Assembly: GCA_947565425.1 (NCBI GenBank)
Contig: CANOFW010000013.1
Location: 18,195 to 82,194 of the forward strand
Length of the DNA: 64,000 nt
Direction: 5' to 3'
Origin: an uncultured Lachnospiraceae bacterium
GTDB lineage: Bacteria > Bacillota > Clostridia > Lachnospirales > Lachnospiraceae
The notes under the pieces were generated by a model that worked only from the letters and a program-made list of their open reading frames with translations, ran no database searches and was not told the origin of the DNA. Position numbers and translations under genes: made by a program. Positions 26,594 through 31,265 of this stretch are shown here, in pieces. Each line of letters starts with the position of its first letter. Position 1 is the first letter of the stretch.

Positions 26594-26770
26594 ATGAACT
26601 TTCCCAAAGATCCCGTTATGCTGCTCAGTGTTGTCAACACTTACCTGAGAGATTACCATTCTACATTGGAAGAATTGTGTGAACACGCCGATGTTTCTGC
26701 TGAAGAAATTACCTGCCGGCTGGCCATTATTGATTACCATTACGATCCACAACAGAATCAATTCCGCTGA
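26594..26770 (+). CDS. DUF4250 domain protein
   Basis: Short conserved Firmicute protein of unknown function. The 58-residue product MNFPKDPVMLLSVVNTYLRD with a C-terminal IDYHYDPQQNQF matches the DUF4250 pattern closely. I chose the ATG at 26594 because GGAGG lies 11 bases upstream; an ATG six codons earlier has no ribosome site. It ends convergently, overlapping the end of the DUF5662 gene by 13 bases. Confidence 0.82.
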   Translation: MNFPKDPVMLLSVVNTYLRDYHSTLEELCEHADVSAEEITCRLAIIDYHYDPQQNQFR

Positions 26771-27342
26771 ATCTCAGGATTTGCCGGCTTTTGATACGGC
26801 GTCCCATAATCTTTCTGTTTGAGCAGCACATGTTTGATATAATGGAAGGTAACGTCTTCGCCCTGGTCTGCTAACATATGCAAAAGCTCTTCCAACAGTT
26901 GCTTACTGTCTTCATGCAAAATATGATGTGCCTTGCCGTGCTCATAATATTCAAGTGCGCTTCTGTCGGTGTACTTTTCTTTCTGATAATTCTTAGATGC
27001 CGACACGCGGTCGATAAACATCTCTACAACATATTTCAACGGCATTTTCATACCGGTAATTCCCTTTTTCTCTCCAACTCCGTAATCAATCCAATATTCC
27101 AGGTGATGTTTGTTCCTGCCCTTATGGTGCAGCCATGCCTGAGAATATCCTTTCTCTAACCGTTCAATATTGTTGGGACTCAGATTGCCCTGATAGTACT
27201 TACAACCCATCAAAAATTCGGTAGGACTATACTTAGACAAATCGTGCAATAATCCCTGTTTATACAACCCCACCCGAAAACAACCGCGCATCACTAACAT
27301 TTTATGATGGTTGATTGTCCTCAAATGCTGCCAAGCCTTCAT
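26758..27342 (-). CDS. DUF5662 family protein
   Basis: Protein of 194 residues, probably cytosolic, with many His and Tyr. The blocks HLRTINHHKMLVMRGCFRVGLY, GLLHDLSKYSPTEF and AWLHHKGRNKHHLEYWIDY suit an HD-like or metal-binding helical fold; the HDLSKYSP and HHKGRNKHH motifs are typical of DUF5662. Function is unknown. It is next to, and codirectional with, the TraX-like gene 26 bases upstream. Confidence 0.75.
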   Translation of the reverse strand: MKAWQHLRTINHHKMLVMRGCFRVGLYKQGLLHDLSKYSPTEFLMGCKYYQGNLSPNNIERLEKGYSQAWLHHKGRNKHHLEYWIDYGVGEKKGITGMKMPLKYVVEMFIDRVSASKNYQKEKYTDRSALEYYEHGKAHHILHEDSKQLLEELLHMLADQGEDVTFHYIKHVLLKQKDYGTPYQKPANPEIQRN

Positions 27343-27368: not shown

Positions 27369-28031
27369 TCAATAAATAATCCTGACAATTAAATATAAAA
27401 TTAATAAATGGAGCGGGTAAAATGCATAGAAAAAATATTTTAACGAAGGTCCCTTTTTGCCGTTATACAGCAACATTGGAACCACCGCAAGAGAAGCAAA
27501 CATCTGAATGCTTCTTCCATAAATCAAAAAATTTTCAACAGCAAACAAAACCTGCTTCACCACTTTTCGCTCATACAAAAGATAATAGCAAAAGATAAAA
27601 ATAATTCCCTTTCCGCCATAATCCGTGTTAAGCAATTCAGCAGCTACAATCATCGGCACAAAAATTAAAACTTCACATAACTTATACTTGCACTGTTTCG
27701 CCAAATCAATCGCCACAACTCCTAGAAGAAGTGTGAAAAACACATTCTGATGATCCCAATTAATCCCTCCCCGAAATGCGAGATCAAAAGGGATTTCAGA
27801 AATCAGGGCAAATCCGAATAGCCGCAGCTCATACTTACGGATATCCCTAGTGTGCATTGCTCCCTCCACCAGAAGAAAACAATAAATAGGAAAAGCTATC
27901 CTCCCAATCACACGCAAAATCCTGTACTGTGGAAACAACACTGCTCCTGTATGGTCAATGAGCATACATATCATGGCTATACATTTTAAGGTAAACCCAT
28001 TGATTCCAAATAATTCCTGTTTCTTTTCCAT
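27369..28031 (-). CDS. TraX-like membrane protein
   Basis: Polytopic membrane protein of the TraX family; in F plasmids TraX acetylates pilin, but chromosomal Firmicute copies have unknown roles. The product begins MEKKQELFGINGFTLKCIAM and has the family features MLIDHTGAVLFP, RIAFPIYCFLLVEG and RGGINWDHQNVFFTLLLG. About seven hydrophobic segments, 220 residues. The start at 28031 is 10 bases after the GH13 stop; the open frame extends upstream into that gene. The two are likely one transcription unit. Confidence 0.8.
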   Translation of the reverse strand: MEKKQELFGINGFTLKCIAMICMLIDHTGAVLFPQYRILRVIGRIAFPIYCFLLVEGAMHTRDIRKYELRLFGFALISEIPFDLAFRGGINWDHQNVFFTLLLGVVAIDLAKQCKYKLCEVLIFVPMIVAAELLNTDYGGKGIIFIFCYYLLYERKVVKQVLFAVENFLIYGRSIQMFASLAVVPMLLYNGKKGPSLKYFFYAFYPLHLLILYLIVRIIY

Positions 28032-28041
28032 TGATTCCTGA

Positions 28042-29967
28042 CTATGCCCCTTTCTCTTTCCCGCGAATGGGCTTGCCGGACAACAGGCAAATCGACTGCT
28101 CACGCACACGAAATTCCTGCACTCTGCCTACCATCTTAGGTTCCTCCAATACCGACTGCTCACGCGACGTATCCAGCAGTAATTTCCATTCCATATTTCC
28201 AGGAAGCGCAAACTTCTGCGTAGAATACTGAAAATTATATGCAATATAAATACTTTCCCTAGCGCGTGCATACTCTCCAGCATAATACATGCCGATAAAG
28301 CCACGATTCATTTCAAAATCTATCTTCCATCCGCCATCACTGTGATAAGACAAATCCGGACAACCCAGGTTTTCATAATCCATCATCCGGTAAGGACTGG
28401 GGCTGCGCAGCATTGGATAACTCCTCCGCAACTTGGCAAGTTCCCGTACATAATTGACAATCTGCCTGCTCGTTGCATTATTCTTCCAATCCTTCCAGCC
28501 AATTTCATTGTCCTGGCAATAAGCGTTATTGTTGCCATTCTGGGAATTCCCGCATTCATCCCCCATCCAGAGCATAGGAACCCCCTGGGCAAAAAACAGC
28601 GCCGTCAATGCGTTCTTGACCTGACGTTTGCGCAAATCAAGAACTGGACGCTTGCGGCTAAAGCCCTCCTGCCCACAGTTCGTACTGAAATTCCAACGAT
28701 TGCCATCGCGGTTATCTTCGTCATTTAATTCATTATGCTTATACTCGTAAGAAAAGACGTCCCACAAGGTAAATCCGTTATTTTCTGCAATAAAATTCAC
28801 AAATCCCTGACGCTTCTGCTGTCTGCGCATCTGGCAGGCAAATTCGTAGATATTACCACCCTGATGATTGAGCATTTTACGTACTTCATAAAGAAATCTG
28901 TCGTTATAAGCAAACAATTCCGGGCCGAACCGCTGTGAATCCTGCGCCAAATCTTCCGCAAATTCATCAAAAAACAACTTGCATCCGCCAAGCTTATCAT
29001 CCAGCGCCGCCAATCTCGCTCCTTCCGGACTGCCAATAATTCGGAATCCATCAACATGGTATTCCTCGCGCCAATAACGAAGAACCTCAATTATAAAAAG
29101 TGGATTCATTTTCTGTGGAAAATAAAACTCTAACACACATTCGATATTTTTCTGGTGCATTTTAAGAATCAAACGTTTCAATTCATCCGGGTTATTCTCT
29201 TTGAGAAAAGATGCCTTGGGCGCAAAGTAGCTGCCCTCTGTATACCCCCAGTAATTGAGCTGCGCTTTGGAATTCTTCTGCTCCTTATGCTCATCCAACG
29301 CCAAAATTTCTTCAAACTCATACAAAGGCATAAAAAGCAAAGTAGTGACGCCCATCTGTTTTAAGTCATCGAGTCTGTGTTCAATTGCTCCAACCGTTCC
29401 CCTCTTTGCATTATTGCGCATTCCCATAGAAAACCCACGCGCATGAAGTTTATAAATTACCATATCTTCTTTAGAAATTTGCGGAAACCTCTCTTGTTTC
29501 CACTTAAAGTCCGAAAAACAAAATGAACTTTTAATTTTATCTCTATCTTTGCCGTTCTGTTTACCGGCTACAGCTCCTATTCGCTGTGCCTCTTCCTCGG
29601 CTTTGCGCACTCTCTCCCGTTGCGGCACAAACGGCTCCGCCCGCCAGGATAACGGTATGCGCCTTTCATCCCCCCATATTTCACGCCCGGTAATCCTATG
29701 GGCATACCGGTCGGTCTGTTCTTTTGCATTCACCTCAAAATTATAATTGTAATTCTCCCAATCCAGCCCCTGTACCCCCACAGTATACAGAGTTTTCCTG
29801 CTTTCGTCCGCTTTCATAGGAATTTTCACAACCGCCCCATTGTCTATTGGGTATAATAAAAGCTTGCATTTAGCGTCCTGCGGCGCCTGGACAGAAAACA
29901 AAATCACATTGCCCTGCTTTGTTACACCTATCTGTTTTGGGATTCCGGTACAGATTTGAAAATTCAT
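28042..29967 (-). CDS. GlgX/isoamylase-like GH13 protein, likely catalytically inactive
   Basis: 641-residue protein with the layout of a debranching enzyme: N-terminal beta domain (about 1-110), TIM barrel (about 165-530), C-terminal beta domain. Retained family landmarks include YKLHARGFSMG, HVDGFR (305-309) and HNELNDEDNRDGNRWNFS (411-428). The catalytic positions look lost. Region I (normally DVVYNH) reads LEFYFP near 279-284. The nucleophile position after GFRx is Ile 311. Region IV HD is NN (396-397). No obvious acid Glu follows strand 5. A binding or regulatory role in glycogen metabolism is inference. Confidence 0.8.
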   Translation of the reverse strand: MNFQICTGIPKQIGVTKQGNVILFSVQAPQDAKCKLLLYPIDNGAVVKIPMKADESRKTLYTVGVQGLDWENYNYNFEVNAKEQTDRYAHRITGREIWGDERRIPLSWRAEPFVPQRERVRKAEEEAQRIGAVAGKQNGKDRDKIKSSFCFSDFKWKQERFPQISKEDMVIYKLHARGFSMGMRNNAKRGTVGAIEHRLDDLKQMGVTTLLFMPLYEFEEILALDEHKEQKNSKAQLNYWGYTEGSYFAPKASFLKENNPDELKRLILKMHQKNIECVLEFYFPQKMNPLFIIEVLRYWREEYHVDGFRIIGSPEGARLAALDDKLGGCKLFFDEFAEDLAQDSQRFGPELFAYNDRFLYEVRKMLNHQGGNIYEFACQMRRQQKRQGFVNFIAENNGFTLWDVFSYEYKHNELNDEDNRDGNRWNFSTNCGQEGFSRKRPVLDLRKRQVKNALTALFFAQGVPMLWMGDECGNSQNGNNNAYCQDNEIGWKDWKNNATSRQIVNYVRELAKLRRSYPMLRSPSPYRMMDYENLGCPDLSYHSDGGWKIDFEMNRGFIGMYYAGEYARARESIYIAYNFQYSTQKFALPGNMEWKLLLDTSREQSVLEEPKMVGRVQEFRVREQSICLLSGKPIRGKEKGA

Positions 29968-30176: not shown

Positions 30177-31265
30177 ATGATCAAAACAGCAATAAAAGAC
30201 ATCCAGACAGGTTCATATACTGCTACGCCTGTTTACACCAAAACGGGACAAATGATTCTCTCTGCTCACACACTCCTTACTGCACAACAAGTATCCCGTT
30301 TGGAGTTTTACGGAATCGAATGGGTAAACATTCAGGAGCCTTCCGATGTTACCGAGGATACAAATTCCGGAAAACAAGAAGAGCCGGTCTCCTTCTCTCA
30401 GAAAGTACGCGTAAGCAAAGAATTTCACGAGTTCAAAGTTGATTATGACAAGAAATCTCGTTATCTGGAATCTTCTTTTGACGATCTTTTAAATAAAAAT
30501 ATTCCGGTAGAATCCAGAGTCCTTATAGAAAATGTAAGCACACTGTACACGGACTGCCTGACCTCGCTTTCCATCTTTGACATGCTGCATAATATGCGTC
30601 AGATTGACGATACGACTTTTGCGCACAGTATTAATGTTGCCCTGATTGGCAGAATGTTAGGAGAATGGCTGAATCTTTCTGACGAAGATTTAGATGTATT
30701 GACGCTGGCGGGACTACTCCACGATATTGGAAAATGCACCATTAACCCCAATATCCTTCTCAAACCCTCCGCCCTTACTCCTAAGGAATATGAAGAAGTG
30801 AAAAAACATGCTGCAAACGGTGCAGAAGTTCTTGCCAGCCAGAATTTAGATGAACGCATCCACCAGACGGCTCTTATGCACCACGAGAGATGCGACGGAA
30901 GCGGTTATCCGTCAGGTTTAACCAAAGACGAAATACCTGACTTTGCCAAAATCATTGCCATTGCCGATGTTTATGACGCAATGACCTCCAATCGTCCTTA
31001 CCGCAAGGGCTACTGTCCTTTCGAGGTAATTGCCACGTTTGAGCGGGAAGGACTGGAAAAATACGATATTGAATATATTATCACCTTTATGACGCGCATC
31101 CTCGATACTTATATGGGCAATACGGTATTATTAAGCGATGGCAATATCGGCACCGTTATCATGAATAACACAATCCATCGTTCTCGCCCATTGCTTCGTC
31201 TTGCGTCCGGCGAATGTATTGATCTTGTGAAACATCCTGAACTCTATATTCAGGCAATTATATAA
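30177..31265 (+). CDS. HD-GYP domain protein, probable c-di-GMP phosphodiesterase
   Basis: Cytoplasmic signalling protein. Residues about 1-60 form a small N-terminal domain of the kind often found before HD-GYP; no receiver or membrane segment is seen. The HD-GYP core has HSINVALIGRMLGEW, GLLHDIGKCTINPNIL, HHERCDGSGYPSGL and IIAIADVYDAMTSNRPYRKG, with the metal ligands and the GYP motif (GSGYP) present. The DUF1292 gene follows after 27 bases. c-di-GMP is the expected substrate; it could link to motility control. Confidence 0.9.
   Translation: MIKTAIKDIQTGSYTATPVYTKTGQMILSAHTLLTAQQVSRLEFYGIEWVNIQEPSDVTEDTNSGKQEEPVSFSQKVRVSKEFHEFKVDYDKKSRYLESSFDDLLNKNIPVESRVLIENVSTLYTDCLTSLSIFDMLHNMRQIDDTTFAHSINVALIGRMLGEWLNLSDEDLDVLTLAGLLHDIGKCTINPNILLKPSALTPKEYEEVKKHAANGAEVLASQNLDERIHQTALMHHERCDGSGYPSGLTKDEIPDFAKIIAIADVYDAMTSNRPYRKGYCPFEVIATFEREGLEKYDIEYIITFMTRILDTYMGNTVLLSDGNIGTVIMNNTIHRSRPLLRLASGECIDLVKHPELYIQAII

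Follow-up and report, generated by a model that had tools for sequence, protein, structure and literature searches.

A putatively non-catalytic GlgX/isoamylase homologue widespread in the Lachnospiraceae

The window, a stretch of 64,000 nucleotides from an uncultured Lachnospiraceae bacterium, encodes on its minus strand a GlgX/isoamylase homologue of 641 residues (28042–29967) that has very probably lost canonical catalysis. Proteins with the same kind of loss, here called the dead type, are present in 124 of 150 Lachnospiraceae genomes as judged by reading the sequences, the sample being one genome per genus with the source genome included; an earlier note, made from the DNA letters alone, had suggested searching for orthologues that share these changes. 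The cutting center has been replaced across the clade, and most of the positions with which an active relative grips glucan farther out are retained.

Homology and replacement of the active site

The open reading frame runs from an ATG at 29967 to a stop at 28042, exactly the coordinates and strand given in the earlier note. By sequence comparison, homology of its product to isoamylase-type debranching enzymes is far beyond chance: the protein matches TIGR02100 (GlgX) with 284.2 bits (E = 1.7e-84), below the curated cut-off of 640.9, and a solved isoamylase with E = 1.6e-52; the solved structures closest to it in sequence are those of isoamylases and GlgX. Pfam reports a weak alpha-amylase domain alone (23.4 bits), and no signal peptide was recognized by eye. 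A profile of 39 relatives aligns colinearly with TreX, GlgX, and ISA1 over positions 9–610, divided into two to four segments; on this alignment the protein is, by descent, a member of the GH13_11 isoamylase fold over the N-terminal domain, the barrel, and the C-terminal domain. The N-terminal β-sandwich, predicted to be CBM48-like (residues 13–88; 29704–29931, minus strand), is assigned from the colinear alignment, in which the profile follows the CBM48 region of isoamylase 1 starting at position 9, and from predicted strands, of which a model places six to seven in these residues (pLDDT ~63–84). Pfam CBM_48 (E <= 0.01) matches 5 of the 39 members and gives no match in the window protein. AlphaFold2, run on a shallow 18-row alignment of close relatives, returned a pLDDT of 49.1 and a pTM of 0.37, with a barrel that is unusable. 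For the isoamylase subfamily, glucan binding by CBM48 is not known (PMC12510319, PMC6243121).

We used E. coli K-12 GlgX (L173) as the column ruler and aligned it with the window protein and 13 active-type Lachnospiraceae paralogues. The nucleophile Asp336 of E. coli falls on Ile311 in former region II (HVDGFRII; 29035–29058), the acid Glu371 on Asp334 in former region III (KLFFDEF; 28960–28980), and the His-Asp pair 442/443 on Asn396-Asn397 in former region IV (NFIAENNG; 28774–28797), all on the minus strand. Former region I, the DVVxNH block, now reads LEFYFP (residues 279–284; 29116–29133, minus strand) and is followed by a junction (residues 285–292; 29092–29115, minus strand) at which, by spacing counts, about 44 residues of the loop after region I are absent. 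The missing segment follows barrel strand 3, where GH13 enzymes carry domain B. The columns lost relative to the active type group around regions I–IV (residues 279–288, 309–316, 332–343, and 396–397). Each of the substitutions named in the earlier note (Ile for the nucleophile, Asn-Asn for His-Asp, no DVVYNH) is upheld by the alignment with E. coli GlgX, in which, by sequence, the triad columns of the window protein read Ile, Asp, and Asn.

A dead-type clade under purifying selection

At a match threshold of E <= 1e-10, 128 of the 150 Lachnospiraceae genomes gave matches; three of these carry the active type only, and one (G074), uninspected, stands outside the count of dead-type carriers. 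We aligned 149 distinct proteins, of which 135 are of the dead type and 14 of the active type (13 from Lachnospiraceae and that of E. coli). All inspected catalytic columns are identical to E. coli in the 14 active-type proteins. Among the 135 dead-type proteins, the E. coli residue is kept at the nucleophile Asp in 1, at the acid Glu in 25, at Asp443 in 29, at His442 in 45, and at Arg334 in 31, and for region I the Asp is kept in 13 and the Asn and His in 2 each. Counted per protein, 84 retain no triad residue, 47 retain one, 4 retain two, and 0 retain all three. The single nucleophile-column Asp belongs to L137:5773-7527 (+), the sole such protein among 156 of the dead type, which is without the acid Glu and without the region IV Asp.

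Petralouisia muris is among the named members of the clade, alongside several isolates and assemblies of Lachnospiraceae. Across the 17 named orthologues (L036–L052), which are 57–85% identical to the window protein, region IV is invariably Asn-Asn (17/17) and the nucleophile column is Ile in 7 and Leu in 10. Their acid column holds Glu in 9, Asp in 5, and Ala, Gly, and Ser in 1 each; judged from these residues, an acidic side chain often survives there. Five of the named orthologues (L037, L038, L043, L046, and L049) have a Lys/Arg-rich C-terminal tail, of which the window protein has a short form only.

The distance from region I (His266) to region II (Asp336) is 26–27 residues in 135/135 dead-type proteins versus 71 in 14/14 of the active type, and that from region II to region III is 23–24 versus 36–38 residues (12–15 fewer). 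The spacing of 26–27 recurs in 6 further Lachnospiraceae proteins and in 15 from other genomes of the family, and the 44-residue deletion is accordingly shared by 156 of 156 proteins of the dead type, not one of which retains the complete triad. The landmarks of the earlier note, HVDGFR (residues 304–309) and HNELNDEDNRDG (residues 411–422), are both found in the 641-residue protein. The note had also described the rest of the protein as well preserved; this is partly correct, given the residues lost between regions I and II and between II and III and the divergent N-terminal third. A tree computed without the catalytic columns (a quick method, unrooted, with a long E. coli row) separates 39 dead-type from 27 active-type proteins by one branch with an SH-aLRT of 100. 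Because of this branch, the tree favors a single origin of the dead type from a GlgX-type isoamylase within the Lachnospiraceae.

Beyond the family, hits at E <= 1e-20 came from 6 of 281 genomes sampled at the class level, 25 of 174 at the order level, and 1 of 393 at the phylum level, in samples that overlap and whose division into inside and outside the family follows the order of the listings. The 17 inspected among these 32 hits, the other 15 (order level) lying outside the inspected set, are all of the active type, with the triad kept and regions I and II 69–71 residues apart. Among the proteins inspected, the dead type thus appears in Lachnospiraceae only.

Selection on the dead-type gene is purifying. 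Omega is 0.055 at a dS of 1.48, which is near saturation, in the comparison with L036, at 85% identity the nearest relative, and against four other orthologues it is 0.08–0.12 with dS saturated; the ratio was computable for these five in all and not for three more. The pseudoenzyme interpretation of the earlier note is therefore strengthened by triad loss throughout the clade, a clade-defining deletion, and purifying selection.

Glucan contacts, gene neighborhoods, and candidate roles

The residues with which S. venezuelae GlgX touches acarbose are Trp222, Tyr224, His271, Asp342, Glu378, Trp380, and His449 at the cut and Arg212, Glu470, Asn534, and Tyr536 farther out (PMC9530166). We mapped these contacts by sequence alignment with S. 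venezuelae GlgX and assessed conservation over 108 relatives that are <60% mutually identical. Around the cut, Asp342 corresponds to Ile311, Glu378 to Asp334, Trp380 to Phe336, and His449 to Asn396, and His271 corresponds to the region I His column. Trp222 and Tyr224 correspond to Trp240 and Tyr242, and the Trp240-Gly-Tyr242 segment (29242–29250, minus strand) would be a kept minus-one subsite platform, with Trp in 108 and Tyr in 96 (Phe in 12) of the 108 relatives. Farther out, Glu470 maps to Glu417 in the conserved loop KHNELNDEDNRDG (28702–28740, minus strand), retained in 107, and Asn534 and Tyr536 map to Asn481 (107) and Tyr483 (99, with Trp in 8) in a near-invariant loop marked by its invariant columns, GDECGNSQNGNNNAYCQDN (28507–28563, minus strand). 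Arg212 has no clear partner, and the active-type paralogues are likewise without an aligned residue. The outer glucan grip thus appears to be conserved and the cutting center not. These retained contacts are suggestive of glucan binding, and the glycogen binding proposed in the earlier note gains indirect support from the presence of Trp240, Glu417, and Asn481 in 107–108 of 108 relatives. The kept loops are also conserved in active enzymes and may be structural; the Glu417 column is mostly Trp in the active-type GlgX of Lachnospiraceae.

We see an even chance that the dead type is a non-catalytic α-glucan-binding protein with an adaptor or regulatory role. Plant ISA2 offers a precedent for this reading, and the glycogen genes of the source genome and the near-universal GlgC of the sample count in its favor. 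With its fold and outer glucan grip presumably intact, the protein would, in the cytosol, hold branched α-glucan (glycogen) on its conserved face without cutting it. The bound protein could then act as an adaptor or regulator that tethers partners to glycogen or shields branch points from other enzymes, and its likeliest partners would be either the products of its operon neighbors, a TraX-like membrane acyltransferase and an HD-like hydrolase of the DUF5662 family, or enzymes of general glycogen metabolism. The more specific proposal that the protein is a glycogen sensor/adaptor coupling the glycogen state to these two neighbors, arisen independently of plant ISA2, family-wide, and kept even without an active debranching enzyme, we consider unlikely.

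The gene neighborhood is the ground for the possible, though on balance doubtful, alternative that the isoamylase fold serves as a scaffold in a process unrelated to glucan and tied to the gene neighbors or to DNA maintenance. Ten bases past the stop of the pseudoenzyme gene lies the ATG of a gene encoding a TraX-like membrane protein (Pfam PF05857; 27369–28031, minus strand), followed after 26 bases by a gene for a DUF5662 protein with HD-domain-like conserved His/Asp residues (Pfam; 26758–27342, minus strand). Across 125 loci, a TraX-like gene follows directly on the same strand in 43, a DUF5662 gene takes the first or second place in 67, and either is found in 85, all 17 named close relatives among them; without the 17 named close relatives, the respective counts in 108 other genomes are 26, 50, and 68. 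With mechanically assigned starts, the downstream genes follow after short gaps or with slight overlaps. Further points that fit such a scaffold are the top neighborhood clusters, in which we found no glycogen gene beside the dead type, an exonuclease III-like gene (named by eye) one or two genes upstream at 19 of the 125 loci, and a C-terminal O6-methylguanine-DNA methyltransferase fused to the dead GlgX in two genomes. The fusion, however, occurs in 2 of 135 proteins only, and no standalone copy of the methyltransferase was found at the remaining dead-type loci; moreover, the glucan contacts are kept at 92–100% (counting Tyr/Phe and Tyr/Trp as kept) whereas other pocket residues drift.

Several features of these neighbors are worth recording. 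The two fusions (L072:6407-8833 (+) and L117:587-2968 (-)) belong to two genera, and the PCHRV motif of the methyltransferase is intact in both. TraX is the pilin acetylase family of conjugative plasmids; the TraX-like gene of the window (27369–28031, minus strand) stands in a chromosomal housekeeping setting and adjoins a glycogen-enzyme homologue. DUF5662 is found in 124 of 150 genomes, usually as one copy per Lachnospiraceae genome and often beside the dead GlgX, and it is tied to the dead type (108 of 124 genomes with DUF5662 versus 15 of 26 without; p = 0.001, kinship ignored). Its residues H13, H33-D34, H72-H73, H79-H80, and D111 (L036 numbering) are conserved in >= 95% of the 67 relatives compared, a His/Asp pattern that resembles HD hydrolases; a search of the open-access literature found no paper on DUF5662. 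Upstream of the pseudoenzyme gene lies an HD-domain gene (30177–31265). Because of this gene and the binding of c-di-GMP by S. venezuelae GlgX, we considered control by c-di-GMP and set it aside as confined to Streptomyces according to PMC9530166, in which the RxxD motif (49–52) and the other c-di-GMP contacts of Streptomyces GlgX are absent from the GlgX of other bacteria.

Genome content bears on whether the protein is still an enzyme. The source genome (92.9% complete) encodes two GlgA and two GlgP proteins and GlgB over cut-off as well as two GlgC-type matches, and searches of it for an active-type GlgX, a type I pullulanase, and GDE_C found none; two more GH13 proteins, maltodextrin glucosidase/cyclomaltodextrinase-like, are below cut-off. 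In the sample of 150 genomes, an active-type GlgX was assigned by score to 45 (335–687 bits versus <= 267 for the dead type; the residues were inspected in 13 of the 45, and G042 and G048 are fragments) and a type I pullulanase over cut-off to 36. Neither is found over cut-off in 78 of the 150, and 60 of these 78 carry the dead type. One could accordingly suppose that the active site has been rebuilt and supplies a debranching activity for which these genomes otherwise seem to have no enzyme; the near-invariant acids D403, E417, D470-E471, and D486 and the Glu surviving in the acid column of 25 of 135 proteins would fit as well. We nevertheless judge this quite improbable: Asp fills the nucleophile column of a single protein among the 135, other pocket positions vary among members where a shared new mechanism would predict otherwise, and the invariant acids are conserved in active enzymes too, none looking newly gained. 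In addition, the two GH13 proteins below cut-off could act on branches, and at its level of completeness the absences from the source genome are not firm.

The dead type could also be a strict bacterial ISA2, that is, a non-catalytic subunit in a complex with an active isoamylase, as the shared subfamily and kind of loss might suggest. Dead and active types occur together in 42 genomes, and the dead type is carried by 42 of the 45 genomes with an active-type GlgX versus 81 of the 105 others (Fisher odds 4.1, p = 0.02, with kinship ignored and 123 carriers counted, one genome having been added later). However, 82 of 124 carriers, the source genome included, show the dead type alone, and we therefore reject such a partnership with active GlgX as a general rule; nor does the protein have room for the extra N-terminal domain of ISA2 (PMC12510319). 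A strict ISA2 role is on these grounds very improbable. The regulation of an active enzyme, which the earlier note had put forward, is likewise unsupported as a general rule for active isoamylase, despite the weak positive association; the protein may still regulate other enzymes of glycogen metabolism. Co-occurrence with glycogen synthesis, tried as a further test, is uninformative because GlgC is too universal (147 of 150 Lachnospiraceae genomes at E <= 1e-60); on these matches, glycogen synthesis would be near-universal in the sample. Finally, the loss of active-site residues and the presence of metagenome assemblies among the genomes might point to gene decay or to an artefact of assembly, but the frame is intact and the length similar in >100 genera, omega is 0.055–0.115 against five orthologues, and the length of the deletion is fixed, and we reject this reading as having practically no probability.

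Significance and comparison with known isoamylases

To our knowledge, plant ISA2 is the main example so far of a dead member in the isoamylase subfamily. A dead isoamylase is thus a kind known from plants, and the clade, the deletion, and the setting described here look new; in agreement with the undescribed class suggested in the earlier note, we found no description of a bacterial class of dead GlgX in the open-access literature, which leaves subscription journals mostly outside. If our interpretation as a non-catalytic protein is correct, plant ISA2 has a bacterial counterpart that is common to a large family of gut bacteria, and homology-based counts of glgX may include the dead type as if it were a functional debranching enzyme; in Blautia obeum, a gut bacterial survey lists two glgX homologues (PMC10395257). 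How glycogen branches are opened also becomes a concrete question, given that 78 of 150 genomes have neither an active-type GlgX nor a type I pullulanase over cut-off, yet nearly all have GlgC.

Among known proteins, the 13 inspected active-type GlgX paralogues of Lachnospiraceae share the domain order of the dead type and are often co-resident with it, but are 690–741 residues long and retain all catalytic residues and the full 71-residue stretch from region I to region II. Compared with GH13_11 enzymes more widely (GlgX, TreX, and bacterial isoamylase), the dead-type family is colinear over the N-terminal domain, barrel, and C-terminal domain, its profile matches S. venezuelae GlgX with E = 2.1e-117 and E. 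coli GlgX with E = 5.4e-95, and the GNNNxYCQDN and KHNExN..E.N.DG loops are held in common. Unlike these enzymes, it lacks the triad, the DVVxNH block, the 44 residues after region I, and 12–15 residues between regions II and III and falls far below the TIGR02100 cut-off. A further parallel is with plant and algal ISA2, which is likewise non-catalytic, in the same subfamily, long kept, and faster-evolving, with its active-site residues replaced (PMC12510319). In a complex, glucan was seen on plant ISA2 at one secondary site (PMC12510319). Plant ISA2 also has an additional N-terminal β-sandwich (PMC12510319), whereas homology of the dead type to the CBM48 region begins at profile position 9. 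The dead type differs in being bacterial and in that most carrier genomes are without an active isoamylase partner.
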